A DNA stretch of 64,000 nucleotides, taken from NCBI RefSeq assembly GCF_004379255.2, contig NC_056045.1:12303593-12367592 (forward strand), read 5' to 3'. Positions 1 through 32,428 of the stretch are shown here, piece after piece. The translations under genes and the position numbers were made by a program. Under the pieces are notes generated by a model. It had not been told where the DNA came from, made no database searches, and saw only the letters and a program-made list of their open reading frames with translations. This DNA comes from Salvia splendens. Taxonomy: Eukaryota; Streptophyta; Magnoliopsida; Lamiales; Lamiaceae. The stretch's first letter is position 1. The number at the start of each line of letters is the position of its first letter.

Positions 1-2
1 TA

Positions 3-1124: not shown

Positions 1125-1204
1125 AAAAATGGTGTTTGTCAAATAATGGTACTATCATTTCGGCAGTTCATCCTCCTTTTCAATCTTTAAAAATTCAAAC
1201 TTAA

Positions 1205-2392
1205 AAAGGTGAAATTATTGCAGACCCTTTTAAACAAACTAAAAAGCCTAATGAAAAAAATACTGCTGAAAATGAAGAATTACAAAGAATTATCCAACTG
1301 AATAATTATTCAAACCAAATTCTTAAAACTATTGCTAACCAATTAGATACTATTTCCACCAAGAGCCCTTCACCCGTCAAACAGAGTATCCTGAATGATA
1401 CTTCTAGACCTTTTTTCAGAAGTAATGATATTTTTAGAAATAAGAATGTAACTTTTAACCCAAAAACAGAAAAATTATTAACAAAAATTTCTGAAAAACT
1501 TGGTGAGCCAAGTACCTCTAATACTAATGTCATCAAAGAAAATCATGAATCAATTTCTGAACAAGCAAGTTGTTCTTCTTCTGATACGGAGAATTATTCT
1601 GTTGAAAAATTAGAAGAAGTTTTCAAAAAGTCTGATAACTCCCCCATTAAGATAAACAGGATATTTAAAGGAAAAAAGTTTAATAGTAACAAAAATTATT
1701 ATAATAGACCTTCACCCGCAGATATGCTTTATGAAGAAAGAGGACAATTTCATAAATCTAGTTACGACGGAAATTCAATAACAGAATGGAACATAGATGG
1801 AAAATCTGAGTATGAAATCCTTAATACTTTGCAAGATATGGGAATGGCAAAGATTGCTTATAGGTACAATTGAATTTCTGAAAGAGAAGCTTGCATCCTT
1901 CTTGTTAATGGTTTTACTGGTCAATTAAAAAATTGGTGGGATAATGCTTTAGATCTTGGAAGCAAGGAACAAATTTTAAGCCATGTTGTGAGTATTGAAG
2001 ACCAAGACGGAGAAATAAAAGAAACAAGCGATGCTTGTGATTTCCTTGTAGTCACTATTTCAATGTATTTTATAGGAAACCCGAGAGAAGAGTATAACAG
2101 TTCTTCCATCGTCCTGACCAATCTTAGATGCCCCTCCTTATCTGATTATAGATGGTATAAGGATGTCTTCATAACCCAGGTTCTTAAAAGAAATGACTGT
2201 AATCAAGCTTTCTGGAAAGAAAGGTTCATTGCAGGATTACCCAAACTTTTTAGTGAAAGAATAATACAAAAAATCAAAGATGATATAGATTCTGAGAATA
2301 TTCCTTTTGAAAATAATTGCTTTCGGGCAATTATTTGCTTTTATCAAGAAAGAGAAAGGTTCATTGCAGGATTACCCTATGCATGGAAATAA
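1205..2392 (+). pseudogene. Caulimovirid coat protein domain, copy A
   Basis: The capsid segment of the polyprotein. One frame runs from 1205 to 2392 with a single internal TGA at 1871-1873, where copy B has GGA. The N-terminal third is Ser/Lys/Asn-rich. The core has the Trp pattern of plant pararetrovirus capsids: EWNIDGKSEYEI near 1786, then GFTGQLKNWWDNAL near 1914, and later YRWYKDVF and WKERFIAGLP. A stretch near 2354-2377 repeats bases from 2218-2241 and is absent from the same place in copy B. It diverts the frame near the C terminus and gives the stop at 2390-2392. Confidence 0.75.
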
Positions 2393-3113
2393 ATATACAA
2401 AACAAATACAGAAAAAAAAAAGAAAGAGAAAAGTGAATTTGGATGTTTCTGTGAAATGTTTGGAATTGAAAAGATTGAAGCCCCTTCTTCTAAGATTAAA
2501 AGGAAGACTAGGAAGATTAAAAAAAGAATCACAAAGGTCTGAATATAAACCTTATAAAAATAAATTTAGAAGAACAAAACCTAAAAGAACTTATAAACCA
2601 ACCAATGATAAAGGAAAAAATGATATAAAATGTTGGTATTGTAAAAAATTAGGACACACTGAAGACCAATGTTGCAAGAAAAAGAAGAAGAACATTAGAC
2701 TAATAGGTAAACAAATCAATAATCTTTTAAGAGAAAAGGATAACTCTTCTAACTCAGAAAGTGAGTCCGATTAAGAAATAGAAGAGATGCTAGATACCTC
2801 TGACGAAAGTGATTATCATATTAGTATTGAACATGGAAAAGATATTTGCAAAAATTGTATCCACGTCATTTCTAAAGAAAAGAAAGTAGTCATCTTTGAT
2901 CTTATCCAAGAAATCTCAGATACCGATATAAGGGATAATTATCTTAATAAGTTAAAAGATTTAATACTTGAAGAACCTTCTACTTCTAAGAGGATAAACA
3001 TCAATGAACAATTTAGTTTAAATAAACTTTGGGATAAATATCCCTATCAAAGCATATCTAAACAAATAACAACCAAAGACCTCCAAAGTGAAATTAATAG
3101 CCTTAAAAAATAA
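2393..3113 (+). pseudogene. Caulimovirid CCHC zinc knuckle and linker, copy A
   Basis: Basic C-terminal end of the capsid region with one nucleic-acid-binding knuckle, CWYCKKLGHTEDQC (Cys-X2-Cys-X4-His-X4-Cys), at about 2632-2673. Lys/Arg-rich segments flank it. An in-frame TAA at 2772-2774 interrupts the reading, where copy B has CAA. The same frame then continues through an acidic Ser/Glu/Asp linker to 3113. In Caulimoviridae this knuckle binds pregenomic RNA. The region from 3114 to 3314 has further small breaks. Confidence 0.75.
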
Positions 3114-3314
3114 ATTAATAAAGAATTTTATGAATTAAAAGAAAAGGACTTTGAAATAGAGACAAGACTCCCTATTATTGAAAATAATAAATAAATTGAT
3201 AACCGGAAGAATCTTGATCCAGAAAATAATTCTATAAAAGTTATCCGAGAAATTGAATACCAAAAATGGCATGTTAATATCACTCTTGCGGTTAATGACT
3301 ACAAAACCAGTATT

Positions 3315-3731
3315 ATGGCCTTGGTGGATTCAGGAGCAGACCATAATATTATCAGAGAAGGTATCGTTCCCACTAAATATTGTGACAAATCCAAAGAAAA
3401 ACTTTATACTGCTAATAATAACCTTTTAAAAATCAAATACAAACACTCCAAAGCTCATATTTGTAACAATGGGTATTGTTTCAAGAATATCTTTACTATT
3501 GTTGAAGATATCACATATAATATGATTCTTGGAACACCTTTCCTAACTCAAATTTATCCTTTCTATGTCAATGATAGTGGTATTACCACCAAAGTTCAGG
3601 GAAGAGAAATAAATTTTAAGTTCATCTCTCCCATTAAGAAGCAAGAAATTCTTAATCTTCAGAATAACTCTATATTCAGACAAATTAATAATATTACCCA
3701 AAAACAAAAACAAATCCAGATCTCTGAATAG
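3315..3731 (+). pseudogene. Caulimovirid aspartic protease domain, copy A
   Basis: Retropepsin-like protease that cuts the viral polyprotein. The active-site loop is ALVDSGADHNII at the start of this frame, with DSG as the catalytic triplet. The second family mark, MILGTPFLTQIYPF, falls near 3520. The frame runs straight into the deletion joint at 3711-3715, so protease is followed directly by a late piece of reverse transcriptase. The stop at 3729-3731 lies in that piece, where copy B has a Lys codon. Confidence 0.75.
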
Positions 3732-4128
3732 GATAGATATAAAACAGCTTTCATAGTTCCTTTCGGACATTATGAATGGAATGTCATGCCTTTTGGGCTA
3801 TAAAATGCCCCCTCCGAATTTCAAAAAATTATGAATGATATCATGAATCCTCTTAGTCATTTTAGTATTTATTGTCTATATCGACGATATTTTAATCTTT
3901 TCCCAAGATATTGATCAACATATCAAACGTTTAGACACTCTCTTAAAAATCATAGAAAAAAATGGATTAGCTATATCCACCCCCAAATTAAAACTATTTC
4001 AAACCAATATCAGAATTTTAGGACATGAGATTAGCAAAGGAACTTTCAAACCTATCAGCAGGTCGATTTCTTTTACAGACAAATTCCCCGATGAAATAAA
4101 AGATAAAAATCAATTACAAAGATTCTAA
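3711..4128 (+). pseudogene. Caulimovirid reverse transcriptase, copy A, N-terminal half deleted
   Basis: Only the second half of the RT is left. YKTAF, GHYEWNVMPFG and APSEFQKIM are readable. A stop follows the MPFGL motif where copy B has Lys. Four extra bases near 3868 shift the frame just before the YIDD catalytic site, which survives only in another frame near 3880-3891. Against copy B, 439 bp are missing, and the joint is at a caaat direct repeat (3711-3715). The first catalytic Asp segment is lost, so no active RT can come from this copy. Confidence 0.8.
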
Positions 4129-4134
4129 GGATGC

Positions 4135-4735
4135 GTGAATTACATTTCAGACTTCTTTCCTAATCTTAGGGAGACTTGTAAACTTCTTTATCAAAGGCTT
4201 AGGAAAGACCCCCCTAATTGGACAGAGGAACACACTAATATTATCAAAACCATAAAACAAGAGGTAAAAACTCTTCCATGCTTAGGCATCCCTAATCCAG
4301 AAGCCTTTATGATCATAGAAACAGATGCCTCAAATCTAGATTATGGAGGAATTTTAAAACAAAAAATTAATTCAAAAGAACAATTAGTTAGATACCACTC
4401 TGGAATCTGGAATAATACACAGATGAATTATTCCGTTATCAAAAAAGAAATTTTATCCATAGTTTTATGTATCTCAAAATTTCAAGATGTCCTTTACAAT
4501 AAAAAATTCTTACTCAGAATAGATTGCAAATTAGCAAAAGAAGTTCTTACAAAAGATGTTTAAAATATTGTTTCATAACAAATATTTGCCAGGTGGCAAG
4601 CTATTCTTTCTGTTTTTTATTTTGAAATTGAATTTATAAAAGGAGAAAATAATTCTCTACCTGATTTTCTAACTAGAGAATTTTTACAAGGGAACAATGA
4701 TGGACTCAACAAGGAAGAAAATACAAAGTGCTAAA
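4135..4735 (+). pseudogene. Caulimovirid RNase H domain, copy A
   Basis: RNase H of the type 1 fold, which degrades RNA in the RNA-DNA hybrid. Counting from 4135, likely catalytic residues are Asp64 in ETDAS, Glu105 in KKEIL and Asp130 in RIDCK. A fourth Asp lies in LPDFLTRE, near 4660. Two stops, at 4561-4563 and 4576-4578, interrupt the C-terminal part. The apparent start at 4135 is a GTG inside the RT-RNase H joint, not a true start. The frame ends at 4733-4735 and overlaps the ATG of ORF2 at 4697 by about 39 bases. This region is absent from copy B, which ends just before it. Confidence 0.75.
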
Positions 4736-5032
4736 GACTATGAAGTCTTCTCTTCAAAACCTACCTCAAAAGCCCTTGTTTCACCCTCAACTCCTGTCAC
4801 TCCTCAAAAATCCAATCAAATTATCCCAAACAGATTCTCTCCAATCCAAAATATACCGGAAATTCCTTATAAAATAGTCCTTGCTTCAAACCTACCAAAA
4901 CCCACTAATATCCAAATCCCAAACACTCCTGAAGTATACAAATATACTTCCAAAGATTGGCATGATGATTGTGGGATGACTACTTTTTTCTGAATATCCA
5001 GCGAGTCTTTCTCAAAAAGATTTTATCAAAAA
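4697..5032 (+). pseudogene. Caulimovirid ORF2, 5' part, copy A (cut by retrotransposon)
   Basis: Second ORF of the pararetrovirus, function unknown. It begins at an ATG overlapping the end of the RNase H frame. The first 90 or so residues are rich in Ser, Pro, Thr and Lys and look disordered; then comes EVYKYTSKDWHDDCG. A frameshift near 4990 moves the reading to another frame, and the LTR retrotransposon starts at 5033. The rest resumes at 27284. I cannot assign a function. A second ORF of unknown role is known in florendovirus-like genomes. Confidence 0.6.
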
Positions 5033-6335
5033 TGTGACAACCCGAACTTTTGGTGTTATAAATGTAAGAAGTGACGGCTAAATATGTATATGTCCCTCTT
5101 TTTCCCAACTTTAAAAATATATATATAATAAAAAAATAAATAAACTAATTAATAAAAGAATATTATTTTTTTTTTTTCAAGAATAGCTTTGATGAGTCAA
5201 GAGTAGGTTATATTAGTCATTTTGTTGACTAATCAAAGCTAAGAATGCAGGCTTGATTAGTAAATAGTACGTGTCATGAATTGTACATAAAAGATACCAA
5301 TGAACACTTATATATATGTATGTGATCTTCTGTTACACCTCTTTGAGGTTTTAAAAAAAAAGAGAGAGATTACACCACTTCATAAAATTCACATCTACAC
5401 TAAAACATACGCCGGGTTTTGACGTGAAACAAGAAGCAACACAAAGAAGGGAGATTTACGAAGAAAGTAACGACGGAAAACGAAGGATCTTTTCCTAATA
5501 GTTGGAAAGTAAATAAGGTGAGCTTTCCATCCTACATACTAATGTGGATAAAAATCGCAAAGTAATTTCGAGATTTGTTATGGTGAAAATCCAAACTCAT
5601 GCTCGTCAATGTTATTGTCCCGTCAGAAATGATTTATGCCTATCTGCCTTGGTTATGCCAAATATGTTATAATCGAATTCGGGTTCAAGTAAGGCCGCAA
5701 ACCTTGCTTGGACTAGTGTACACAAATGGACCGTGAGCCGTTGGCCGGTCATGTGACCGTCGTGGAAGGTGGCCACCTTCCCGGTACACAAATGTTAAGA
5801 TATGGCAAATGAACTTAGACCGCGGTTGAACATAGAATTTTAGCAAGCTCAGGCCTTTTAAGTAAAAAAAAAAATCCATGAGTGTTGCTGTAATGATGTG
5901 ACAATATTTTCAAATATATAATTGTATTTTTCGGCATTGTGTTCACTGAGTACTCCTGTACTCAGCTCTGTATGTATTTCTAAACGTGCAGGTTGAGCTG
6001 CAAAACGGTGAAGCAAGGGGGTTGAGAGAAAGTTCTTTTGAGTTGATCTAGTAAGACCTCCGAGGTTTATGTCTCTATACATGAAACTGTGTTGTTTACT
6101 TCCGCTGTGAAAACTATAACTTCAAATCCTATTTTGTATCATAACGCTATCCTTTGATCCTATATTACTCCTACTCAAGTATTTCAGGATGTATACATGA
6201 TATTTTTATAATTTCCGTCTGAATTTGTACTTGTTATTACTTATCCCTTTTTCCTCATCCCCACTTCTCTTAACCCTCCCCTTTTAGTCACGAATTTTTT
6301 GTACTATACTATCCATAGGTAGTGCGGCCGTGACA
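5033..6335 (+). repeat. 5' LTR of the outer retrotransposon
   Basis: 1303 bp, TG...CA ends, near-identical to 25984-27283. By eye I count about five substitutions plus homopolymer changes. A TATA-like run at 5309-5317 may be the promoter. It carries GGCCGGTCATG and other GC-rich patches near 5740-5780. Confidence 0.92.
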
Positions 6336-6766: not shown

Positions 6767-7336
6767 ATGGCCCCTTTTCGATTTACTGCTAGGATGAGAA
6801 CGTCACCGATACAAAGCCCAGAAGATATAGTAGAAGAATATGAGGAATGTGCTATGCGCTTTAATGAAGATCTAGGAGAATTTCTTGCTCGGTTCGGCAA
6901 GCTCTGGAGACGGGCCCATCGGTAGGCCAAGCTCTGGAGAATTTCTTGCTCGGTTCGGCAAGATCTAGGGGTTGATGATATGGACGGGATTTCACGACTT
7001 GTTAGTCTACTACCTTCTACTTGGCAGCGATGGGCGAAGATGATCTCCAGGGATTATATTTTCTATCGTAGGCCACGCTTTGTGTACACAGGTGATTTCC
7101 TCCACTTCTTAGGGGAAATTCAGTTGTGTTACACTGTGTACGGACATGCTCCTCTAGGGCCATATATATTACCCGGTGACCCCATCCCAGCAGGAGGATC
7201 CATACTTCCGGATCAGCCGAGTATCGTGCCTGGTATGATGCCACCTTCTCCTTGGCCCGTTACTCGAGCACATAGGGCACGATATGAGGCTGAGGCAGGC
7301 CCGTCACGACCACTGCCGGATGAAAGAAGGTGGTCA
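6767..7336 (+). pseudogene. Pre-gag ORF of the outer element, 5' part
   Basis: Extra ORF between the primer-binding site and gag, homologous to the minus-strand ORF at 15884-16486. The ATG at 6767 directly follows an in-frame TAG, which fixes the start. The N terminus is MAPFRFTARMRT; residues 41-48 are ARFGKLWR, matching ARFETLWR at residues 41-48 of the inner ORF without gaps. A 61-bp-spaced duplication (6875-6901 and 6936-6962) and a TAG at 6923-6925 break it. The frame reopens to LLPSTWQRWAKM, a domain shared with the inner ORF (LMPDNWESWLET). The inner element enters after 7336; the same frame resumes at 20557. Function unknown; possibly a gag-like or chromatin-related accessory protein. 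Confidence 0.65.
7332..7336 (+). other. Target-site duplication, left, of the inner element
   Basis: ggtca, identical to 20552-20556; five bases is the size typical of Ty3/gypsy integrase. Confidence 0.85.
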
Positions 7337-7345
7337 TGTCACATA

Positions 7346-7678
7346 GCTATTACAACATCATAATCATAAACATAGCACATGCTCAAGGTATTATGTCAAT
7401 CATGCTCGTATAACCATTCCATTACAACTCATCCTCATGCATATCATTCACTCCCATGCATAAACTTGTCAATGTCATATCATATCATCATACATTTTCA
7501 TGCACTACTCTTCCATACTTCCAACAATTTAAACATACCTCACTTTCATCGGTTGAGCGTGATGCCTGGATGTTGAGCCTTCATGACACTTCTAGTCAAA
7601 TAAGGGTTCACTAACTTAGACTTAAAGTGAAAGAAGACTCTCGGACCAGAGCGAAAGAACAAAGCTCTGATACCACTC
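7346..7678 (-). repeat. Duplicated leader and primer-site tail beyond the 3' LTR of the inner element
   Basis: 333 bp matching 16760-17092, the leader next to the 5' LTR, including the primer site (7664-7675 on the plus strand). It lies outside the 3' LTR, where host target DNA should begin. With the LTR-end stub at 7337-7342 it suggests a remnant of a second internal region and a third LTR. Confidence 0.85.
7664..7675 (-). promoter_or_regulatory. Second copy of the tRNA-Met primer-binding site, in the tail of the inner element
   Basis: TGGTATCAGAGC on the minus strand beyond the 3' LTR, inside the duplicated leader. It is not expected in a simple LTR element. Confidence 0.85.
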
Positions 7679-10600
7679 TGTCACGACCGCCCATACAAGG
7701 GGTACCACAAACGCGGCGATCGTGACCGACATGCATGGATTTCAATTAAAAAAAAAACTTAATTAATTTTGAAGAAAGGAAAACAACTTAGTTTAAAGAT
7801 TTTAACGTTATTATTTTTTTGAAAGGACATAAGATAAAAGAATACTTTTAAAAAAAAGGACAACGGAAAAGTTAGACTTAAGAAATACATCAATTAAAAG
7901 TTTAAGTAAAACACGCATTAAACTTAAATCTCAGAGAAAACCATTTTCAAAAGACAACGTAGATGCACGTTTAAAACCTAACACCACCATACATGTTCCA
8001 ACACCAAAACGAAAAGCTTAAGATCTTAAGACATAAATTAAAACATAGCAGCGGATAAAAGGGTTCAAGGAGAGTCAAGGATCACGCCTATGTATGACGA
8101 CACAACGTATCCTAAGTTCTCTAGCCAGCTCAACATCCACCGCAACATCCCGCTCAACCTGCAAAATTTTAAAAAGAAATTGCAGGGCTGAGTACTTGTT
8201 GTACTCAATGGGCTCATGCCGAAAATATTTATCAAGTTATGTCATCCATACCAGTGATCTCGAGTTTTATACGCAGTAAAGAAAAATATCACGAGAACAC
8301 AAAGAGTTTCATAGACTGGCCAGTCAAATAATCTCCCCACTTTTCACATCAATCCAACAATCACAATCACAGTGCGACGAAAGTGTGGCCACACTATTCG
8401 CCCACGAGACCGGCCGACTTGCAAGGACGGCTCACGATCCCACCAGTGTACACAGCCCGATAGGGTTTACGGCCCTACTCGGACCCGAATTCGTTTCACA
8501 ACACAGCCATATAGCCTAACGGAGTAAACTCATACGAACTAGGCATCAGGCACACAATCTCATAACAAAAACATCATGGCATGACATAACAGTTAAACCA
8601 CCCTTATATCTCCACATAATATTTTTCGGAAAAGTAAAGAGGTTTGAAAAGAAAGCCCACCTCGTTCTCTTAGCAAAATCACAACCCAACTTAGCAACTC
8701 TCGATCCTCGAGTTCACGAAAATACAACACCCTTGTCAACGACAACACAAGTCAGCCTCACACAAAAACATACTACTATGCATGTCCTATCGCTTCACTC
8801 TCATTGTTCTCATCAATCCCAAAGCCCAACATACATCACAAGGGTATAAAACACACGTAACACATTTCAACTTATCGCAAGTGATTTCAACATTTAAACA
8901 CGTTCCTTGCACATACATGCATCATATAGCACTTTTAAACTTGAAACTAAGTGTCATTTAATCAAGGCAGAAAACTGGCAGAATTGCGCGACCGTTTTGT
9001 AAAAATCACTTTAAATTCACCCGACCTCAAAACATGCTAATTTTTTGGTCACGATACAGAGGACACATTCAAGTTCATCCATGAAAATTTTCATATCGAA
9101 ATCACGTCATTTAGTCAGTCATATCACATATTGAACTCTCTGGTCGGAACATACGATTTCCGACAGTATTGCGCAGTTCATTTGAAAAATTCACCATAAT
9201 TTCATACGATGCCCAAAAAGGCTGAAAATTTTACACAATACAGAAGACACATCAAATATTCATATCGTTCAAGAATTACATCAATCGGAGTTCATTTGGT
9301 CAGTCAAACAGAAAACGAAACATTCATGACGAGAACTCGCGTTTCTGGCAGATTTGCGCAGTCGACTTCAAACATTTATTAAAAATTCATTTTTCGATAA
9401 AACAGGCTGAAATTTACACGAGACACCGAAAACATCTTGAAGTTTACTCAGTAAAAATTTCGTAGCAAAATTCGTTCGTTTGATGCGTCGACTACAGATC
9501 ATAAGTCACTGGTCGAGCATCACAGAATTCTGGTTCAAATCCGAAAATAGGGTTTTTAAATTTCCACAACGAAAACACCGATTCTTCATGCTCGAAAACA
9601 CATCATCATGCTTACACATTCCTCAAACACATATTTGCATACCAACTCATATTTTTCACAATTATTTCGATCCAATCACATGTGAATTCAACCAACAACG
9701 CAAAACCAAACAAGTTCATACGAACATACAATTCCCTCCCGTTAAAACTTTCGATCTATCGAACCTACGCTCTCTACATGCATGTAGGACTCAAAACATG
9801 GTTCAAAAACGGAAGAGGAGTAGAAGTGAGCAATTATACCTTCCTTTGGCAAAAACCAATCGGTAGAAGCGAAGAACAAGGCGATTCGTCGGAGATTCTT
9901 GAAGGAAACTCCAATGGATGCAAGAATAAGCTTGAATGGAGGTTTTTGGAGATGGGAGAGTGGGGAAGAAGGCAAAACCGTGTGGGAGTGAGGGTGAGGA
10001 GAGAGTGGCGTGAAAAAGAAATAGTGGCTAGGGTTAAGGCTTTTAATATTTATAGTCTAGGTTAAAATCCCACACCTAATGAATTAATTAAATTGTGGGA
10101 GGAATAAATTAAATAAAAATCTCCCAATTAGAGCACAAAGTAGGCGTGCATAATGAGGGGGGGGTTTAATTCAATATTTGCTTATTTAATAACAATGAGA
10201 TATAGCAATATTTACTTGGAGAGAATATTCATAAATTAGGAAATAAAGGTGAATATTCCATAAACAAGGGAACAAAAATAAATTAAATCTCCAAGTAGGA
10301 ATTAATGTGGTGGGGGCCGAGAATTTCAAGAGGAAATTTGTACAAGGAAATTATTTAAATCCCCAATTAAATAGAATAGGATTTAAATTTGGTAATTCCT
10401 TTATGGAAAAAGGCTCCCATAAAAAGGCAATAATTAATTAAATTCCCACAAGGAAAATAAGTGCCTAGGGGCGTGTGATATGGAGGAACAATAGAAGAAA
10501 AATATTCACATCCTCAATTAATTAGGCATAGGAATTTATTTGAATAAAAAGGGATCCCACAAATTAGGAAACAAATAAATTACTCTCCAACTTTATTGGA

Positions 10601-11135
10601 GGGGGCCGAAATTGATAGGCTAAATAGCCAAGGAAAAATACCCCAACTCTCTATTTATTTTGGGTGAAGAAATAAATTATCACATGATTTAATTGGATTA
10701 AATTCAAAGGAAGGGAGTCAATAAAGCACCAATTAATCAAGGGATTAATTCATTCTCCTATAGGAGATTTTCGAAAACTCCCAAGGAAAAATAAAATGGA
10801 GTTCGAATTTCTTGTAGTATAATTTACGGTCCATGGGTTTGGATTTAATTTGGATTAAAGTCCCAAAATAATTTAATTAAATCCACAAAAGAAGTACTAT
10901 CTCAATAATTAGGAAGGGCCGGATATTTCAATAAATTGACTTGAGAAAGAATAAATGCATGATCCTATTAATTATTTCCCCATATTGGAATGACATAAAG
11001 TCTCAAGCTCATCATTCACATTAACCATGACAATTTATTTCACGCAAAGCACTTAATCACATAAAATCAAACGTTTCAAAATTCCAAAATTCCAATAACA
11101 TAATAAAAAGGGTCACAAAAGTTTGGGATGTTACA
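7679..11135 (-). repeat. 3' LTR of the inner retrotransposon
   Basis: 3457 bp, near-identical to 17093-20551. In minus orientation it starts TGTAACATCCCAAAC and ends GGTCGTGACA. A minus-strand TATA box CTATAAATA lies at 10047-10055. ORFs in it (for example 9480-9866) have no recognisable domain and are not called. The 10060-11100 part is AT-rich with many short AATTAATTAAAT-like repeats. Confidence 0.92.
10047..10055 (-). promoter_or_regulatory. TATA box in the 3' LTR of the inner element
   Basis: CTATAAATA on the minus strand, followed downstream by a pyrimidine-rich leader. The same site in the 5' LTR (19460-19468) would start the genomic RNA. Confidence 0.5.
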
Positions 11136-11179: not shown

Positions 11180-14100
11180 TCACATAAACAGCTCGGGAAA
11201 CTTTTCTTTCATCTTATCTTCTAACTCCCACGTAGCTTCTTCGGGGCCATGGTGCTTCCACAACACCTTCACGGACGCTATCGACTTGTTTCGTAGCTCT
11301 TGTACCTTTCGATCTAGGATTGCTTCGGGCCTTTCCTCGTAGCTCATGTCGGGGGTTAGGATCACTTCCTCTTGGTGAATCACATGTTTGGGGTCAAACA
11401 CGTACTTGCGCAACTGCGACACGTGGAACACGTTATGCACGTTTCCAAAGCTGGGAGGTAACGCCAAACGATACGCTACAGGACCTACTTCGTCGATGAT
11501 CTCGTACGGTCCCACAAAACGCGGTTTCAGCTTGCCCTTCACTCCAAATCTCACAGCTCCTCTCGTCGGGGACACTTTCAAGAACACTTTGTCACCAACG
11601 TCGAATTTGATTTCCGTTCGACGTACGTCCGCATACGACTTCTGTCTATCTTGAGCTTCCTTGATCCTTGCGCGGATTTGATGCACAATTTCAGTCATCT
11701 CCTTTATAGCATCGGGCCCTAACATCTTTCTCTCGCCGACTTCATCCCAGTAAAGTGGGGATTGACACTTCCTGCCATACAAGGCTTCGTACGGGGCCAT
11801 ATCGATCGTCGCTTGATAGCTATTGTTGTAGGCGAATTCAACCAAAGGTAGAACCGTTTCCCAACTTTCCCCTCGATCTAAGACGACAGCTCGCAACATA
11901 TCTTCAAGTGTCTGAATCGTCCTCTCTGATTGCCCGTCCGATTGCGGGTGATAAGCAGTACTAAAATTCAACTGTGTGCCCAATTCGCGTTGCAAACTCA
12001 TCCAAAACTTTGATGTGAACTTCGTATCGCGGTCGGATACAATGGTCTTTGGCACTCCATGCAATCGCACAATCTCGTTCACGTAGAGCTTTGCTAGTTT
12101 GTCCGCGCCATAAGTAATCTTAATCGGTAAGAAGTGCGCGCTTTTAGTAAGTCGATCAATGATCACCCAGATCGCAGTGTTGCCCTTCGGTGACCTTGGC
12201 AAACCCGTCACGAAATCCATAGCTAGATGCTCCCACTTCCATTCAGGAATTTCGAGCGGTTGCAGCTTCCCATATGGCCGTTGGTGTAAGGCCTTCACTT
12301 GTTGGCATGCTAGACATCGTTCCACAAAAGACGCTACGTCTCCTTTCATTCCATTCCACCAAAACCGTTGTTTCAAATCCCGATACATCTTCGTGCTTCC
12401 GGGGTGTGCGGTGTAAGGCGTGTCGTGCGCTTCACTCAAAATCTCCTCTTTTAGCACCTCATTGCTCGGCACACACAATCGTCCATCGTACGTCAAGGCA
12501 TTATCCGCCTCCTCACGGTAATGATCAAGCTCCTCGGCTCGCACCTTCGCACGTAACTCCTCCAACTTTCCATCACGTCGCTGGGCTTCTATGAGCTTGG
12601 TCCTCAAATCTGGCTCAATCACTAGCGTCGCCAAACTTGCACCTACTGTCTCGGGCGCTTTTACTATCTCCAAACTCATCTTGTCGAACTCGTGAATCAA
12701 CGCTTCCTCTTGCGTTAGGAAATAAGCTAGTTGAGGTTGGTTCTTCCTACTCAAGGCATCGGCGACCACGTTCGCCTTGCCCGGATGGTAATTAATACCG
12801 CAGTCATAGTCCTTCACGACCTCTAACCAACGCCGTTGTCGCATGTTTAGCTCCTTCTGCTCGAAGAAGTACTTGAGACTCTTGTGATCCGTATAGATTT
12901 CGCATCTCACTCCATAGAGATGATGTCTCCAAATTTTCAGCGCGTGCACCACTGCTGCTAACGCCAAATCATGCGTCGGAAAATTCAACTCATTTGGTCT
13001 CAACTGTCGGGAAGCATATGCTATCACCTTCCCATCCTGCATCAACACGCATCCTAGTCCTACTTTTGACGCGTCCGTGTAGACGGCGAAGTCCTTGTCG
13101 GGTTCTGGTACCGCTAGGACTGGTGCTGTAGTCAATTTCTCCTTCAACAGTTGGAAACTCGCCTCGCACTCTGGCGTCCAAACTACCTTGATTCCCTTCT
13201 TTAGTAGTTGCGTCATCGGTCTCGCAATCTTAGAGAATCCTTCAATGAAGCGTCGATAATATCCCGCCAATCCCAAGAAACTGCGGATTTCACTTGGCGT
13301 TTTCGGTGATTTCCAATTCTGTACGGCCTCGACCTTTGCTGGGTCTACTTGAATCCCATTTGCCGTCACAATATGACCAAGGAAGTTCACTCGAGTCAGC
13401 CAAAACTCACACTTACTAAACTTGGCATAAAGTTTCTCTCTTTGCAACGTTTCCAACACTGTTCGTAGGTGCTGTCCATGCTCCTCCTCGTTCTTCGAGT
13501 ATACCAACACGTCGTCGATGAAGACTAACACAAACTGGTCAAGATACTCGTGGAAAACTCGGTTCATCAAGTCCATAAAAACGGCTGGGGCGTTGGTCAG
13601 ACCAAACGGCATCACGACGAACTCATAATGGCCATAACGAGTGCGAAAAGCAGTCTTAGGCACATCCTCTCGTCGGACCTTTAGTTGATGATACCCTGAT
13701 CTCAAATCCATTTTCGAGAATACGCCCGCTCCTCGAAGTTGGTCAAACAAGTCGTCAATCCTTGGCAGTGGGTACTTATTCTTCAAAGTCATCTTGTTTA
13801 GCTCACGATAGTCGATGCACATTCTCATCGTTCCGTCCTTCTTCTTAACGAACAGAACTGGCGCTCCCCATGGTGACACACTGGGTCGAATGAAACCCAA
13901 GTCCAACAGTTCCTGCAACTGGACCTTCAACTCGGCCAACTCCTTAGGGGCCATTCGGTATGGCGCCTTTGATACTGGCGCTGATCCTGGTTCTAAATCA
14001 ATGGTGAACTCCACCTGTCTGTCGGGTGGCGGTCCTGGTAAAGCTTCGGGGAACACCTCGGGAAAATCTCGCACCACTGCCACGTCTTCCACCCTCAATT

Positions 14101-15655
14101 CTTTCTTTTCTTCCCCATTCAAGTATACCAGATACGCCGGACGTCCTTTCCTTATCATCGTAGTTGCTTGCAATGCGGAGATTATGGAGGTTCGTCGGTT
14201 CATGGAGATCCCATACAAGATAGTCGGCTCTTCGCCCGGGGCTTGAAAGGAAATCTGCCTCTGTTTACAGTAAATCGTTGCGTGGTTCTCGGTAAGCCAA
14301 TCCATTCCCAAAATTATGTCTACGTTCTCCAAAGGCATAACGTGCAAGAGATGGGCCACTACTTCTAGTTCTCCTAACACAAACTCTATGTTCGAGCAAG
14401 TTCTCACAATATCAATCAATCCTCCAACCGGTGAGGACACATTCAAACTCGATTCAAGCATAGCAGTAGGGAGTTCTAAGGCATTCACACATGACATGGA
14501 AATAAAAGAATGCGAAGCACCCGTATCAAACAGCACAATAATAGGCAGTTGTTGGAGCGTTCCCATACCTGCCAAATTTTCCTTGTCCTTGATGGCTTGG
14601 GGTTCCTTCCCTTGATTCCCCTTGAGTGCATATGCCCTTGCTTGCTGTGGGGCCACTTGTCGGATTGGTTGAGGCTGCTGTGGTGGTCTCTGTCCTTGCC
14701 CATTCTTCACTCCACTTTTGTTATTGTTTGGGCATTCTCGAGACATGTGCCCGTTTCCACCGCAGGCATAACACCGAATGCCTCCAACTCGGCACTCCCC
14801 AACATGATGCTTGGAGCACCGATTACAGTAGGGTGTTCTCTGTGGGTTTCCCCTCTGTTGTGGCACAATTTGGCGCCCATGATTCTGTGGTTGCCGAAAA
14901 GTGGAGAAACGCCTCTTGTTGTCAAAAGAAACTCGGTTTCCCTCCCATTTCCTCTTTTCTCTAAAGTTCGCTTGGGGTGCAGATGGGGTAGGGTTTGTTG
15001 TCCTCTCATTCTTGGGCAGTGCTTCCTCCACATCTAAGGCACAGCCCAGCACCTCGGAATAAGGAATTCCCCTCCGACTAGCCACTGCGACCCTTATCTC
15101 TGTCCTAAGGCCAGAACGGAACTTCGCGGCCATCTTCTCGTCTGTATCCACCAATTCTGGCGCATAGCGAGTCATCTCACATAGGGCGCGGTCGTACTCT
15201 GTGACCGTCATACTTCCTTGCTTCAACGTGTGGAACTCCACTACCTTCGCCCGCCGATAACTTTCCGGAACATACTTGTTGTACACCTCTTCCTTAAAAT
15301 CCTCCCAAGTAAGCGCCTCACGGCGAGCGGGGTCCATGGTTCTCTTCTTTGTTTCCCACCAAAAGTCAGCGGGTCCTGTCAGCTGATAAGTCACGCAGGC
15401 CAGGCGTTCTCTGTCCGTGCATCCCATGAACTCAAAGATACGCTCAATATCGCGCACCCATGCCTCCGCCTTCGGGGGCTCTCCCAATCCATCAAACTTA
15501 GGTGGGTTCTCTTTCCGAAAGGCTTTGATGTACTCCCTTTCGTTTGGTTGGGGTAGAGGTGGTGGTGGAGGCGGGGGTGGATTGCCGACACTTCCTTCCG
15601 TCTGCTCCCCCACATTGTTCTCCACACGCGGACCACGTCTACGTCTCGGGGGCAT
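11180..15655 (-). CDS. Intact Gag-Pol polyprotein of the inner Tekay-like element (1491 aa)
   Basis: A single open frame starting [10 protein letters not shown]. Order by residue: Pro-rich N terminus 22-40; gag domain about 50-215; CCHC knuckle [14 protein letters not shown] 295-308; protease DTGA 377-380; RT about 565-730 with Asp650 in [12 protein letters not shown] and the pair Asp714-Asp715 in FIDD; RNase H about 850-970 with Asp861, Asp923 and Asp967; integrase zinc site His1077, His1084, Cys1114, Cys1117; integrase catalytic Asp1147, Asp1208, Glu1244 (35 residues between the last two); GPY motif 1382-1384; chromodomain-like end about 1441-1490 ([19 protein letters not shown]). No frameshift separates gag from pol, as is usual for Tekay. 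All catalytic residues that I can check are present, so it may be active. Confidence 0.95.
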
Positions 15656-15883: not shown

Positions 15884-16486
15884 CTATCTAGTGCTAATAT
15901 CCTCTTCCGGGTCTTCTTCCTCTTCCGGGTCCTCTTCCTCTTCTACGTGGTACTCATCAATCATACGGAGATCTTCTTCGTCATCCATACTATCATCCGT
16001 GTTAACATCCACGTAGTCATCTTCAAAACCCGGGACCATGCCTTCTTGTGGTACGGCTTCTCTTACTGCCGTTGGTTTAACCTCGATCACATCTTTGTCT
16101 TCCCAAAAGGTCTAATCTTCTTCTTTCTCTGTCGATGGTGGTCGCTCGGAACATGAGTCAATCAAAGCACAGGTTAAGGCCTTTAGAAAACCTTTCATGT
16201 CGCCGGCCATCATCTGGTTTCTTGGTTCGTACCACGTGAACCGACTGGCTGTTGTTTCCAACCAAGACTCCCAATTGTCGGGCATCAACTCAATTAGTCT
16301 TCTTATGCCACCATAGGCCGTTACATGGTACCCGTAGACATCTCGCCATAGGGTCTCAAAACGGGCGACAACCTCTCTCAAAGCCTTGCCTTCCTCTCTC
16401 TCATAGTGGTCGTAATCGTAAATCGCTTGTCGCATTCTAGCACTATACTGACTGCTCTTAAGCGCGGTTTGTTTCGTTCGTACCAT
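15884..16486 (-). CDS. Pre-gag ORF of the inner element with histone H3-like N terminus
   Basis: Extra ORF between leader and gag. The ATG (16486 reading left) directly follows an in-frame TAG, so this Met is the first possible one. The N terminus is M then VRTKQTALKS, 8 of 10 identical to the histone H3 tail ARTKQTARKS, with H3 Lys4 and Lys9 positions kept. Residues 41-48 are ARFETLWR; LMPDNWESWLET follows near 70; both are shared with the outer pre-gag ORF. A TAG at 16112-16114 ends 124 codons. The same frame then continues to 15884 with a strongly acidic tail (EEEEDPEEEEDPEED). Whether the stop is a mutation or is read through is not visible. Bases 16487-17077 are leader, and 15656-15883 are spacer before gag-pol. 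Function unknown. Confidence 0.65.
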
Positions 16487-17077
16487 CTACGCGGAGACGA
16501 AAATTTCTTTTAAAACACCAAATTGTATTATTGTTTGAAAAAAGTTGTTAAGTTTGTCGCGTAGTTCGAAAGTTTGTCGTTGTCTTAACGTTTCATATCT
16601 TTGCATGCTATCGTTGTAGTATTTTCGCGCATAAAACACATTTAGCAACATCACTTAGTTCATACACACAAGTATTCATGCCATATCGGTATCACCTTTG
16701 CACATAAAATACATGTCTCAATTATCATGCCAATCATACTTGTACTTCCACGAAACCATGCTATTACAACATCATAATCATAAACATAGCACATGCTCAA
16801 GGTATTATGTCAATCATGCTCGTATAACCATTCCATTACAACTCATCCTCATGCATATCATTCACTCCCATGCATAAACTTGTCAATGTCATATCATATC
16901 ATCATACATTTTCATGCACTACTCTTCCATACTTCCAACAATTTAAACATACCTCACTTTCATCGGTTGAGCGTGATGCCTGGATGTTGAGCCTTCATGA
17001 CACTTCTAGTCAAATAAGGGTTCACTAACTTAGACTTAAAGTGAAAGAAGACTCTCGGACCAGAGCGAAAGAACAAA

Positions 17078-17089
17078 GCTCTGATACCA
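17078..17089 (-). promoter_or_regulatory. tRNA-Met primer-binding site of the inner element
   Basis: TGGTATCAGAGC on the minus strand, three bases (gag) after the 5' LTR end, the same spacing as in the outer element. Confidence 0.92.
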
Positions 17090-17092
17090 CTC

Positions 17093-20000
17093 TGTCACGA
17101 CCGCCCATACAAGGGGTACCACAAACGCGGCGATCGTGACCGACATGCATGGATTTCAATTAAAAAAAAAACTTAATTAATTTTGAAGAAAGGAAAACAA
17201 CTTAGTTTAAAGATTTTAACGTTATTATTTTTTTGAAAGGACATAAGATAAAAGAATACTTTTAAAAAAAAGGACAACGGAAAAGTTAGACTTAAGAAAT
17301 ACATCAATTAAAAGTTTAAGTAAAACACGCATTAAACTTAAATCTCAGAGAAAACCATTTTCAAAAGACAACGTAGATGCACGTTTAAAACCTAACACCA
17401 CCATACATGTTCCAACACCAAAACGAAAAGCTTAAGATCTTAAGACATAAATTAAAACATAGCAGCGGATAAAAGGGTTCAAGGAGAGTCAAGGATCACG
17501 CCTATGTATGACGACACAACGTATCCTAAGTTCTCTAGCCAGCTCAACATCCACCGCAACATCCCGCTCAACCTGCAAAATTTTAAAAAGAAATTGCAGG
17601 GCTGAGTACTTGTTGTACTCAATGGGCTCATGCCGAAAATATTTATCAAGTTATGTCATCCATACCAGTGATCTCGAGTTTTATACGCAGTAAAGAAAAA
17701 TATCACGAGAACACAAAAAGTTTCATAGACTGGCCAGTCAAATAATCTCCCCACTTTCACATCAATCCAACAATCACAATCACAGTGCGACGAAAGTGTG
17801 GCCACACTATTCGCCCACGAGACCGGCCGACTTGCAAGGACGGCTCACGATCCCACCAGTGTACACAGCCCGATAGGGTTTACGGCCCTACTCGGACCCG
17901 AATTCGTTTCACAACACAGCCATATAGCCTAACGGAGTAAACTCATACGAACTAGGCATCAGGCACACAATCTCATAACAAAAACATCATGGCATGACAT
18001 AACAGTTAAACCACCCTTATATCTCCACATAATATTTTTCGGAAAAGTAAAGAGGTTTGAAAAGAAAGCCCACCTCGTTCTCTTAGCAAAATCACAACCC
18101 AACTTAGCAACTCTCGATCCTCGAGTTCACGAAAACACAACACCCTTGTCAACGACAACACAAGTCAGCCTCACACAAAAACATACTACTATGCATGTCC
18201 TATCGCTTCACTCTCATTGTTCTCATCAATCCCAAAGCCCAACATACATCACAAGGGTATAAAACACACGTAACACATTTCAACTTATCGCAAGTGATTT
18301 CAACATTTAAACACGTTCCTTGCACATACATGCATCATATAGTACTTTTAAACTTGAAACTAAGTGTCATTTAATCAAGGCAGAAAACTGGCAGAATTGC
18401 GCGACCGTTTTGTAAAAATCACTTTAAATTCACCCGACCTCAAAACATGCTAATTTTTTGGTCACGATACAGAGGACACATTCAAGTTCATCCATGAAAA
18501 TTTTCATATCGAAATCACGTCATTTAGTCAGTCATATCACATATTGAACTCTCTGGTCGGAACATACGATTTCCGACAGTATTGCGCAGTTCATTTGAAA
18601 AATTCACCATAATTTCATACGATGCCCAAAAAGGCTGAAAATTTTACACAATACAGAAGACACATCAAATATTCATATCGTTCAAGAATTACATCAATCG
18701 GAGTTCATTTGGTCAGTCAAACAGAAAATGAAACATTCATGACGAGAACTCGCGTTTCTGGCCGATTTGCGCAGTCGACTTCAAACATTTATTAAAAATT
18801 CATTTTTCGATAAAACAGGCTGAAATTTACACGAGATACCGAAAACATCTTGAAGTTTACTCAGTAAAAATTTCGTAGCAAAATTCGTTCGTTTGATGCG
18901 TCGACTTCAGATCATAAGTCACTGGTCGAGCATCACAGAATTCTGGTTCAAATCCGAAAATAGGGTTTTTAAATTTCCACAACGAAAACACCGATTCTTC
19001 ATGCTCGAAAACACATCATCATGCTTACACATTCCTCAAACACATATTTGCATACCAACTCATATTTTTCACAATTATTTCGATCCAATCACATGTGAAT
19101 TCAACCAACAACGCAAAACCAAACAAGTTCATACGAACATACAATTCCCTCCCGTTAAAACTTTCGATCTATCGAACCTACGCTCTCTACATGCATGTAG
19201 GACTCAAAACATGGTTCAAAAACGGAAGAGGAGTAGAAGTGAGCAATTATACCTTCCTTTGGCAAAAACCAATCGGTAGAAGCGAAGAACAAGGCGATTC
19301 GTCGGAGATTCTTGAAGGAAACTCCAATGGATGCAAGAATAAGCTTGAATGGAGGTTTTTGGAGATGGGAGAGTGGGGAAGAAGGCAAAACCGTGTGGGA
19401 GTGAGGGTGAGGAGAGAGTGGCGTGAAAAAGAAATAGTGGCTAGGGTTAAGGCTTTTAATATTTATAGTCTAGGTTAAAATCCCACACCTAATGAATTAA
19501 TTAAATTGTGGGAGGAATAAATTAAATAAAAATCTCCCAATTAGAGCACAAAGTAGGCGTGCATAATGAGGGGGGGGGGGTTTAATTCAATATTTGCTTA
19601 TTTAATAACAATGAGATATAGCAATATTTACTTGGAGAGAATATTCATAAATTAGGAAATAAAGGTGAATATTCCATAAACAAGGGAACAAAAATAAATT
19701 AAATCTCCAAGTAGGAATTAATGTGGTGGGGGCCGAGAATTTCAAGAGGAAATTTGTACAAGGAAATTATTTAAATCCCCAATTAAATAGAATAGGATTT
19801 AAATTTGGTAATTCCTTTATGGAAAAAGGCTCCCATAAAAAGGCAATAATTAATTAAATTCCCACAAGGAAAATAAGTGCCTAGGGGCGTGTGATATGGA
19901 GGAACAATAGAAGAAAAATATTCACATCCTCAATTAATTAGGCATAGGAATTTATTTGAATAAAAAGGGATCCCACAAATTAGGAAACAAATAAATTACT

Positions 20001-20551
20001 CTCCAACTTTATTGGAGGGGGCCAAAATTGATAGGCTAAATAGCCAAGGAAAAATACCCCAACTCTCTATTTATTTTGGGTGAAGAAATAAATTATCACA
20101 TGATTTAATTGGATTAAATTCAAAGGAAGGGAGTCAATAAAGCACCAATTAATCAAGGGATTAATTCATTCTCCTATAGGAGATTTTCGAAAACTCCCAA
20201 GGAAAAATAAAATGGAGTTCGAATTTCTTGTAGTATAATTTACGGTCCATGGGTTTGGATTTAATTTGGATTAAAGTCCCAAAATAATTTAATTAAATCC
20301 ACAAAAGAAGTACTATCTCAATAATTAGGAAGGGCCGGATATTTCAATAAATTGACTTGAGAAAGAATAAATGCATGATCCTATTAATTATTTCCCCATA
20401 TTGGAATGACATAAAGTCTCAAGCTCATCATTCACATTAACCATGACAATTTATTTCACGCAAAGCACTTAATCACATAAAATCAAACGTTTCAAAATTC
20501 CAAAATTCCAATAACATAATAAAAAGGGTCACAAAAGTTTGGGATGTTACA
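17093..20551 (-). repeat. 5' LTR of the inner retrotransposon
   Basis: 3459 bp; by eye about eight to ten single-base differences from the 3' LTR. The minus-strand TATA box is at 19460-19468. LTRs of several kb are usual for Tekay/Del elements. Confidence 0.92.
19460..19468 (-). promoter_or_regulatory. TATA box in the 5' LTR of the inner element
   Basis: CTATAAATA on the minus strand, at the same position as in the other LTR; likely promoter for the element's transcript. Confidence 0.5.
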
Positions 20552-20556
20552 GGTCA
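20552..20556 (+). other. Target-site duplication, right, of the inner element
   Basis: ggtca directly after the LTR end gatgttaca; partner of 7332-7336. Confidence 0.85.
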
Positions 20557-25969: not shown

Positions 25970-25983
25970 GAAGGAGGAGAGGA
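25970..25983 (+). promoter_or_regulatory. Polypurine tract of the outer element
   Basis: GAAGGAGGAGAGGA lies directly before the 3' LTR, as expected for plus-strand priming. Confidence 0.85.
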
Positions 25984-27283
25984 TGTGACAACCCGAACTT
26001 TTGATGTTATAAATGTAAGAAGTGACGGCTAAATATGTATATGTCCCTCTTTTTCCCAACTTTAAAAATATATATATAATAAAAAAATAAATAAACTAAT
26101 TAATAAAAGAATATTATTTTTTTTTTTCAAGAATAGCTTTGATGAGTCAAGAGTAGGTTATATTAGTCATTTTGTTGACTAATCAAAGCTAAGAATGTAG
26201 GCTTGATTAGTAAATAGTACGTGTCATGAATTGTACATAAAAGATACCAATGAACACTTATATATATGTATGTGATCTTCTGTTACACCTCTTTGAGGTT
26301 TTAAAAAAAAAGAGAGAGATTACACCACTTCATAAAATTCACATCTACACTAAAACATACGCCGGGTTTTGACGTGAAACAAGAAGCAACACAAAGAAGG
26401 AGATTTACGAAGAAAGTAACGACGGAAAACGAAGGATCTTTTCCTAATAGTTGGAAAGTAAATAAGGTGAGCTTTCCATCCTACATACTAATGTGGATAA
26501 AAATCGCAAAGTAATTTCGAGATTTGTTATGGTGAAAATCCAAACTCATGCTCGTCAATGTTATTGTCCCGTCAGAAATGATTTATGCCTATCTGCCTTG
26601 GTTATGCCAAATATGTTATAATCGAATTTGGGTTCAAGTAAGGCCGCAAACCTTGCTTGGACTAGTGTACACAAATGGACCGTGAGCCGTTGGCCGGTCA
26701 TGTGACCGTCGTGGAAGGTGGCCACCTTCCCGGTACACAAATGTTAAGATATGGCAAATGAACTTAGACCGCGGTTGAACATAGAATTTTAGCAAGCTCA
26801 GGCCTTTTAAGTAAAAAAAAAATCCATGAGTGTTGCTGTAATGATGTGACAATATTTTCAAATATATAATTGTATTTTTCGGCATTGTGTTCACTGAGTA
26901 CTCCTGTACTCAGCTCTGTATGTATTTCTAAACGTGCAGGTTGAGCTGCAAAACGGTGAAGCAAGGGGGTTGAGAGAAAGTTCTTTTGAGTTGATCTAGT
27001 AAGACCTCCGAGGTTTATGTCTCTATACATGAAACTGTGTTGTTTACTTCCGCTGTGAAAACTATAACTTCAAATCCTATTTTGTATCATAACGATATCC
27101 TTTGATCCTATATTACTCCTACTCAAGTATTTCAGGATGTATACATGATATTTTTATAATTTCCGTCTGAATTTGTACTTGTTATTACTTATCCCTTTTT
27201 CCTCATCCCCACTTCTCTTAACCCTCCCCTTTTAGTCACGAATTTTTTGTACTATACTATCCATAGGTAGTGCGGCCGTGACA
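25984..27283 (+). repeat. 3' LTR of the outer retrotransposon
   Basis: 1300 bp, same ends as the 5' LTR. It follows a purine tract and is followed directly by resumed caulimovirid ORF2 sequence. Confidence 0.92.
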
Positions 27284-29329: not shown

Positions 29330-30677
29330 ATGGCCAGTAAATTGGTAAATCTGTTAAGACCCAAAACTGAAAAGAAATATGATAAAAATATTGTTTCCAG
29401 TAATGAGATTCATGCACCCATTAATTACTTAGATTGAAGTATCCCTAAAGAAAAGGTTGAAAATTTTTATAAAATAGGTCTTATAGATTTTAGGACTGCC
29501 TTTTCTATAAGGACTCATGAAGAAACTAGAAGTATCTTGCGCAAGTCAGAAAGCTTTCCTCTCCTCAATAAAGATTCTATAAAAATATATAGAAAAAGGC
29601 CATAGGTATGCCCATTTTGGTCTAGCCCAAATTGTTGTCAAACCTTTAGTCCATATAGGAGTCGACACACCCATTTACCTAGCTTTGAGTGACAAAAGAC
29701 TTAAGAAATATCAAACTTCTATCTTAGCCATGGTCCAAACTAATATTTGTAATGGCCCAATATACTTCAACTGCTCCCCGAACTTTTCTGTTGATCTGAC
29801 AGACCCTATGATTTTAGAATCCCTTGTGCTTGACATTCAGATACATGGAAATGAGTTTCATAATTGCAAAAATTTTGCTGTCATGTTCAGAGTCTACCTT
29901 AGGCTTATGTCTTCAAATTTGAACCCTAAATTTAGTAAGAACCCTTTTGTGAAAGGAGAAACTATTCTCTTAAAAGTAGATGTTGAACAATCCACAACAT
30001 ACACTCCTAAACGTCTTAAATGGAATCAAATGACAATTCCAAGTCAGTTTATTATAAAAGAACCTCAAATCCCCAGGGACATTGAAAGGAGAGAACCATC
30101 TCAAATAATTGAAGAACCTGATGGTACTATAACAGTCAAATTTGATAGGACAAATTCTTTCTCAAACTACAGAATCAATAGAAGCTTTAGATATGAGGAT
30201 AGTAGAGCTTCCTGTTCAGATATTCCTAGTCCTTCCGAGTGAAACTGGACGTTCAAAACACCTATACCACAGTCAAACTCCCCGGTTGAAGAAAATATAG
30301 GTGACCCTTACTCACCCACTAGAAGTACTATGGTCATAACTCTTAATAAAGAATTTACACCAGATATGGAGTATTTGAATAAAGAATTAAGTTCTCCTTT
30401 TTACAAAGAAAAAGAAAGATGGTTTAACAAATTAGATAATAAGATTAGAAGCAAAATAAAGAATGAATGGATGAATGAAATGAAAAGAATAAAATCAAAC
30501 ATTCTTTTTTATGATTTTATAGCAATATACCTCTCTTCAGAAGGATGGTATGATTGTTTTAAAAAACCTACCATTGAAGTTAATTCAAGTCTTATAAAAA
30601 ATGGTGTTTGTCAAATAACGATATATCATTTCGGCAGTTCATCCTCTTCTTCAATCTTTAAAAATTCAAACTTATAA
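29330..30677 (+). pseudogene. Caulimovirid movement protein domain, copy B
   Basis: Starts at the ATG at 29330, the first in frame after the primer-binding site. The same 30K-type motifs as in copy A follow (GVDTPI, GPIYFNC). Breaks seen: TGA at 29435-29437; loss of two A in the run near 29583, which shifts the frame; and TGA at 30240-30242, where copy A has AGA. The frame then continues to 30677. Relative to copy A the A-run near 30560 keeps the frame here, so the two copies carry different lesions. Confidence 0.8.
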
Positions 30678-30679
30678 AG

Positions 30680-31798: not shown

Positions 31799-31837
31799 TT
31801 ATTTGCTTTTATCAAGAAAAAAGGCTTAGCCCTATGC

Positions 31838-32428
31838 ATGGAAATAAAAATACAAAACAAATACAGAAAATATAAACAGAAAGAGAAGAGCGAATTAGGA
31901 TGTTTCTGTGAAATGTTTGGAATTGAAAAGATTGAAGCCCCTTCTTCTATGATTAAAAGGAAGACTAGGAAGATTAAAAAAGAATCACAAAGGTCTGAAT
32001 ATAAACCTTACAAAAATAAATTTAGAAGAACAAAACCTAAAAGAACTTATAAACCAACCAATGATAAAGGAAAAAGTGATATAAAATGTTGGTATTGTAA
32101 AAAATTAGGACACACTGAAGACCAATGTTGGAAGAAAAAGAAGAAGAACATTAGACTAATAGGTAAACAAATCAATAATCTTTTAAGAGAAAAGGATAAC
32201 TCTTCTAACTCAGAAAGTGAGTCCGGTCAAGAAATAGAAGAGATGCTAGATACCTCTGACGAAAGTGATTATCATAGTAGTATTGAACATGGAAAAGATA
32301 TTTGCAAAAATTGTATCCACGTCATATCTAAAGAAAAGAAAGAAGTCATCTTTGATCTTATCCAAGAAATCCCAGATACCGATATAAGGGATAATTACCT
32401 TAATAAGTTAAAAGATTTCATTCTTTAA
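31838..32428 (+). pseudogene. Caulimovirid CCHC knuckle and linker, copy B
   Basis: Lys/Arg-rich region with the knuckle CWYCKKLGHTEDQC, then the Ser/Glu/Asp linker. It is open where copy A has a stop (2772). It ends at TAA 32426-32428, where copy A reads GAA. Bases 32429-32769 continue the linker in broken frames and hold no other feature. Confidence 0.75.

Follow-up and report, generated by a model that had tools for sequence, protein, structure and literature searches.

A histone H3-like N-terminus on the 5′ accessory protein of a chromovirus clade in Salvia splendens

As a class, the aORFs of plant LTR elements are known and unexplained (PMC7264820, in the part of the text available), as are the 5′ aORFs of Tekay elements, among them that of sunflower Tekay 13-2 (PMC11728184, available excerpt, citing Steinbauerova 2011). 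On the viral side, histone mimics have been described in influenza NS1 (ARSK) and in SARS-CoV-2 ORF8 (ARKS) (PMC10208167, available excerpt). An H3-like N-terminus on a retrotransposon protein was described by none of the literature matches listed in our search (titles and abstract starts, mostly open-access literature). One study is reportedly titled "Histone H3 N-terminal mimicry in methyl-effector interactions", a title that names mimicry as a route of methyl-effector binding. The word "histone" is absent from the available texts of PMC11728184 and of the aORF review PMC7264820. Here we describe an N-terminus of this kind: within a 64,000-nt stretch of Salvia splendens DNA (hereafter the window), the pre-gag ORF of a chromovirus begins MVRTKQTALKS, with 8/10 identity to H3 residues 1–10 and an in-frame TAG immediately before its ATG, which confirms what the initial annotation of this DNA had claimed. 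Across related copies, this H3-like N-terminus is a real, clade-wide feature of a known kind of accessory protein, and in one copy it reproduces H3 1–10 exactly.

The ORF belongs to one of two nested Ty3/gypsy elements in the window, the inner one lying on the minus strand inside a plus-strand relative (Table 1). The two LTRs of the inner element are 99.7% identical (8 substitutions), and a GGTCA that adjoins its repeat at 20552–20556 recurs at 7332–7336, nine bases outside the other side; we take this pair as the target-site duplication of the inner element. Its gag-pol matches Pfam models for gag, protease, RT, RNase H and integrase, and we label the element a Tekay-type chromovirus from its architecture and the literature. 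Elsewhere in the window, a tandem array occupies 37274–64000, with a unit ORF (153 aa in most copies) that is a gag fragment; its units share 73–77% DNA identity with inner gag 14939–15379, and the array is, judged by this resemblance, a retrotransposon-derived satellite. An additional, apparently solo LTR of the outer family (37830–39133, 99.3%) adjoins satellite units, and a long direct duplication (1–4191 and 29475–34070, 97% and 93%) may represent the two LTRs of a still larger element that encloses the outer one. A search of bacterial and viral collections with gag-pol yielded little of use beyond contigs L001–L003 and a weak viral one, L004. The first of these (L001, NZ_VCHY01000050.1, a Labilibacter sediminis contig) carries a plant-type Ty3/gypsy gag-pol at 43% identity, probably as contamination, and the viral match (L004 5001–5138, 32% to residues 14–63 of the ORF, E 7e-4, with few candidates scored) is probably chance.

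Table 1. Features of the nested elements, with positions counted from the first base of the window
Feature	Position	Strand	Remarks
Pre-gag (5′ aORF) frame, inner chromovirus	16112..16486	-	124 codons + TAG; begins MVRTKQTALKSSQYSARMRQ
VRTKQTALKS, H3 1–10 look-alike	16454..16483	-	codons 2–11
In-frame TAG directly before the ATG	16487..16489	-	also in 92/97 copies, the outer element and third-family locus L072
Stop TAG, codon 125 (window copy)	16112..16114	-	in 0/39 other near copies
Remainder of the pre-gag frame past the codon-125 TAG	15887..16111	-	acidic, EEEEDP repeats; ends at TAG 15886-15884
Inner 5′ LTR (own orientation)	16760..20551	-	repeat comparison
Inner 3′ LTR	7346..11135	-	repeat comparison
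gag-pol ORF, inner element	11180..15655	-	1491 aa, intact; gag, zinc knuckle, protease, RT, RNase H, integrase
Chromodomain-like C-terminal stretch of gag-pol	11189..11329	-	residues 1443–1489; below Pfam cut-off
Outer element LTRs	5032-6335 and 25983-27283	+	enclose the inner element
Outer pre-gag frame, MAPFRFTARMR...	6767..7345	+	codon 53 is a stop; frame interrupted by the inner insertion

The match stands apart from everything else in the window, where the remaining 2,826 ATGs on both strands score 4/10 at most, and the chance of an 8/10 match to H3 is ~1e-9 per N-terminus under six-frame composition and 7e-9 under protein composition. By itself, however, the match leaves chance possible, because each window holds thousands of ATGs and there are many windows and many remembered motifs; conservation therefore had to decide. 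Residues 11–20 of the window copy are identical to H3 at 2/10 positions. The ORF contains 0 Pfam families, protein searches with the ORF alone or joined with its second half returned nothing informative, and H3 was not among the matches of a PDB search using the pre-gag N-terminus. A single-sequence structure model has a mean pLDDT of 55.7, residues 1–13 being among its low-confidence parts, and a second model (6 sequences) has a mean of 50.1, with residues 4–26 helical at low confidence; at such confidence the two models are of no help on mechanism. Past its codon-125 stop the window frame continues to codon 200, the window copy being cut short relative to its near copies, most of which continue to an acidic C-terminus. 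As a whole, the 5′ accessory ORF is mostly ~194–212 aa long, with an H3-like N-terminus, a predicted helical middle and an acidic C-terminus.

Copies were collected from the 806-Mb Salvia splendens genome by a DNA search (best 40 of 263 candidates), by a protein search (best 150 of 1579) and, with a piece of a sister family as query, from the best 150 of 1280 candidates scored. The best 150 of 1579 protein-search matches are 73–100% identical and mostly open frames of ~180–212 aa; the frame is thus a sense ORF between the 5′ LTR and gag that is conserved among copies, which places it among 5′ aORFs. For the tail we compared 100 copies (the window copy, 39 near copies, 20 at 73–85% identity and 40 found by homology to the sister-family copy L093), of which 97 were usable after L112, L113 and L135, with indels at the start, were left out; these copies are not independent, and the tail supplied 11 residues of each query (124 and 72 residues long), a mild bias. 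Among the near copies, the tail reads VRTKQTALKS in 16, VRTKRTALKS in 18 and other variants in 5, and the 20 copies at 73–85% identity keep six to nine H3 matches, two of them reading MARTKQTALKS. The initial annotation had named a lack of conservation in the first ten residues as the mark of a chance match; what we find is six to nine matches of ten in all 97 copies (6 in 6 copies, 7 in 44, 8 in 41 and 9 in 6). Restriction of the tail to near-identical copies is ruled out by the more divergent copies and by those of the sister family.

Conservation differs from position to position along the tail. Residue 1 is V in 75 of the 97 copies, A in 22 and nothing else, that is, in every copy one of the two residues that the annotation had named as allowing Met removal. 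The H3 residue is present at R2 in 94 copies, T3 in 80, K4 in 95, T6 in 95, A7 in 89, K9 in 97 and S10 in 88. Position 5 holds Q in 51 copies, R in 39 and a stop in 7, and a tree of 40 copies requires four or more switches between Q5 and R5 (one comparison kept 36 of the 40, those that are colinear). Position 8 is R in 15 copies and L in 75, with R8 found in 0/77 copies of the window's own family. An H3-tail match that exceeds chance and is conserved among relatives is what marks a histone mimic in sequence terms, and such a match is found here, without amino-acid constraint within the family.

The start of the protein seems genuine. The ATG is intact in 94/97 usable copies, and downstream of it the frame is open for 194–212 codons in 32/39 other copies, seven stopping earlier. 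In the window, the frame is also open for 55 codons ahead of the start TAG, as it would be if the N-terminus were part of a longer upstream frame, yet 33/39 other copies have in-frame stops in this stretch and only 6 are open, and this reading was rejected; the upstream stops and the open frame downstream bear out the earlier view that the N-terminus is fixed. This start TAG hardly ever changes and is shared by two other families, although the leader on either side of it is far less constant; pyrimidine content in the 25 bases upstream of TAG-ATG is 48–56%. The junction may be a splice acceptor (AG followed by ATG), a site of stop-start reinitiation or another signal. Thirteen upstream ATGs lie in the 273-nt leader (16487–16759), which makes the route of ribosomes to the pre-gag ORF or to gag puzzling.

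Likeness to H3 is closest in the sister family, whose tail reads M[V/A]RTKQTARKS and whose copy L093 shares 63% identity with the window ORF across 72 residues. The pattern TAG-ATG-[A/V]RTK[Q/R]TARK gives 21 hits in the genome and its reversed-pattern control 0; eight of nine inspected hits begin MVRTKQTARKSAQYN, and L093 begins MARTKQTARKSAQYNV, with MARTKQTARKS being H3 1–10 exactly. Nine sister-family copies, chosen by the tail pattern, have 9–10/10 H3 matches, where ~3e-4 ATGs with at least 9/10 are expected by chance in 806 Mb at window composition. In 20 sister copies chosen by homology, position 8 is R in 15, C in 3 and H in 2, and there is variation at S10 (G 7, C 1), T3, Q5 (stops) and A7. 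Farther away the likeness is lost, a third family (MAIMIHAPLRG, L072) matching H3 at 1/10 and the Salvia divinorum relative P0004 at 0/10. The distance from the start to LWR, counted by eye, is 45 residues in the inner, 45 in the outer and 44 in the third family, and from this near-equal spacing their starts are probably homologous. Families without the H3-like tail have the rest of the pre-gag protein in common with the tail families, and the tail is probably specific to a single clade, which either acquired it or kept it while others lost it. Third-family proteins P0003–P0007 are annotated in Salvia as variable charge X-linked protein 1-like and tau-tubulin kinase 1-like, among others, names that look wrong for retrotransposon proteins.

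The ORF of the outer element, MAPFRFTARMR, had been put forward as complementary evidence, on the grounds that it aligns with the inner ORF without gaps and that every H3 residue is represented between the two. Its 4/10 match and the gap-free MAFFT alignment hold up; its standing as strong corroboration does not, since the alignment has 3 identities in the first 21 residues, the gap-free pairing of residues 2–21 does not outscore shuffled sequence (P 0.41), and introducing a gap so that FTARMR pairs with YSARMR raises the score (46 vs 39, end gaps free). At least four matches have a chance of ~0.001 per N-terminus, and 3 of the 1,387 plus-strand ATGs of the window reach 4/10. The joint representation of all H3 residues accordingly weighs little, and the outer tail may reflect a faint shared ancestry with the inner one.

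Mimicry of the H3 tail by the accessory protein is, in our judgement, the likeliest single explanation, with a probability of about 0.42, and is unproven. It is favoured by the retention of the tail in the 97 copies, by R8 in most sister-family copies, by the exact H3 1–10 of L093, by the rarity of such matches under chance, by the amino acids held between families, by the contacts that a PHD finger makes with H3 (below) and by the low model confidence of residues 1–13. Close behind ranks a coincidence kept by other constraints, in which a short basic N-terminus (for nucleic-acid binding or nuclear import), or an RNA or DNA signal overlapping the start, happens to spell an H3-like peptide that the copies share by descent. 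For 47 different, colinear copies of the window's family, placed on a tree from codons 17–124, substitutions run opposite to what protein-level mimicry predicts: silent changes in codons 2–11 number 6, where 16.1 are expected (P 0.0024), and amino-acid changes number 24, where 16.8 are expected; Fisher P 0.030. In a 24-copy set, pS is 0.067 in codons 2–11 vs 0.356 in codons 17–124, and pN is 0.087 vs 0.108; 20 of the 30 within-family changes sit in codons 4, 6 and 8, each of which holds a CpG in a common form. This pattern suggests a constraint at the level of nucleotides, or else reflects decaying copies sampled in small number, and it is the chief reason for our caution on mimicry. Also against mimicry weigh the missing R8 in that family, Q5 in just 51/97 copies, the low H3 scores of the outer, third-family and S. 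divinorum ORFs, the variation of T3 alongside Q5, the non-independence of the copies, the tail within the queries, the 13 upstream ATGs and the low-confidence helix of the second model. Depleted silent sites beside undepleted amino-acid changes speak for a coincidence, as do the more basic Arg at position 5 in 39/97 copies, the nearly invariant TAG-ATG and the tail-less families that share the rest of the protein.

Between families, in contrast, the tail is better conserved than the adjacent segment, with pN 0.146 and pS 0.362 in codons 2–11, compared to pN 0.321 and pS 0.333 in codons 12–27 (77 vs 20 copies; column permutation P 0.023). The 20 homology-chosen copies were used in a repeat of this test because a first version (with a pN of 0.098 for the tail, 0.095 for codons 32–46 and 0.218 for codons 17–72) had relied on 8 of the 9 sister-family copies, all picked by the tail pattern, which biased its tail value. 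A coincidence sits poorly with silent sites that differ normally between families (pS 0.36–0.37) while amino acids are held, with the retention of positions 2, 4, 6 and 9 and of only A or V at position 1, and with the improbability of an 8–10/10 match at a fixed N-terminus, though very many ORFs were compared with many motifs. The selection analysis that had been proposed as a check on the tail hence gives a divided answer, amino acids being held between families and unconstrained within the window's family (24 changes vs 16.8).

Two further explanations appear improbable. In the first, template switching brought the start of a host H3 gene into the element, where it then drifted, with or without function, which would suit the exact H3 1–10 of L093; furthermore, the H3 start pattern has 24 additional hits in the genome, presumably H3 genes, the closest of which differs at 4/30 bases, all third positions. 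Random synonymous codings are, however, equally close in 32–40% of draws, and capture from present host H3 genes was rejected on this account; the likeness of L093 also ends after residue 10 (Q19 is the sole further identity through residue 21, by eye), and the low identity of the window copy over residues 11–20 also counts against capture. The second, a general nuclear-import or RNA-binding Tekay 5′ aORF protein whose tail has no role of its own, is about as unlikely, for although the sunflower protein has a predicted nuclear localisation and a suggested part in modulating RNA silencing (PMC11728184, available excerpt), and PKRRRLG occurs in third-family P0003 and P0005–P0007, it does not account for the retention of R2, K4, T6 and K9 beside variable T3 and Q5.

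Returning to H3-tail mimicry, we propose more tentatively, and as less probable than either of the two leading explanations, a specific form of it: that this retrotransposon lineage evolved a free, H3 1–10-like N-terminus (R2, K4, T6 and K9 held) that engages host readers or writers of the H3 tail, its own chromodomain being presumably cage-less. For mimicry as a whole, the likeliest mechanism begins with the initiator Met, which is removed when the next residue is Ala or Val; its removal here would free the N-terminus, so that a flexible end would show the H3-like [A/V]-R-[T/M]-K-[Q/R]-T-A-[R/L]-K-S. Host H3-tail proteins would then bind this tail, readers of the first seven residues around K4 being likelier than K9 readers; loss of R8 would weaken recognition on the K9 side of the H3 tail. 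Once bound, the tail could anchor the accessory protein, or the whole particle, at chromatin factors, or serve as a decoy, and the acidic C-terminus might, as speculation, bind basic histone tails or the protein's own N-terminus. Translation, Met removal, binding and benefit to the element are steps that we infer.

As to partners, a K4-side reader is likelier because, in one solved PHD finger complex, the free N-terminus is anchored and H3 residues 1–7 are contacted, T3 and Q5 included (PMC9399681, available excerpt). These two PHD-contacted positions vary among our copies, and R2, K4, T6 and K9 are the best kept. The initial annotation had also suggested that the element's own chromodomain might bind the tail. 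Seed-plant Tekay chromodomains are type II, in which the first cage aromatic and usually also the third are missing (PMC6317226, PMC3350952 and PMC3605345, available excerpts); since type II lacks the methyl-lysine cage and has no known partner, the element's own chromodomain is an unlikely partner, and the suggestion is not supported. The inner element scores 24.1 bits with Pfam Chromo, vs a cut-off of 25.1, and in a weak alignment with a PDB relative (E 0.058) its chromodomain keeps W and TWE, with HH in place of NY.

If H3-tail mimicry is real, it would show a plant retrotransposon imitating the histone tail, give a function to the unexplained Tekay 5′ aORF proteins and possibly answer how seed-plant chromoviruses with cage-less chromodomains address chromatin; if it is false, the tail is a good example of an 8–10 residue look-alike kept by other constraints. 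Compared with host histone H3, the tail is exact over residues 1–10 in L093, with no match beyond about residue 10. Like the 5′ aORF of sunflower Tekay 13-2, the Salvia frame is a sense ORF between the 5′ LTR and gag, without a Pfam domain, conserved among copies and partly disordered; the sunflower protein is ~400 aa and proline-rich, whereas that of Salvia, at ~200 aa, starts like H3 and ends in an acidic stretch (PMC11728184, available excerpt). Like influenza NS1 and SARS-CoV-2 ORF8, it presents a short H3-tail motif on the protein of an element or virus; the viral motifs are four residues long, that of NS1 being C-terminal, whereas the Salvia motif, known at the level of sequence, spans 8–10 residues at the extreme N-terminus of a plant retrotransposon protein (PMC10208167, available excerpt).
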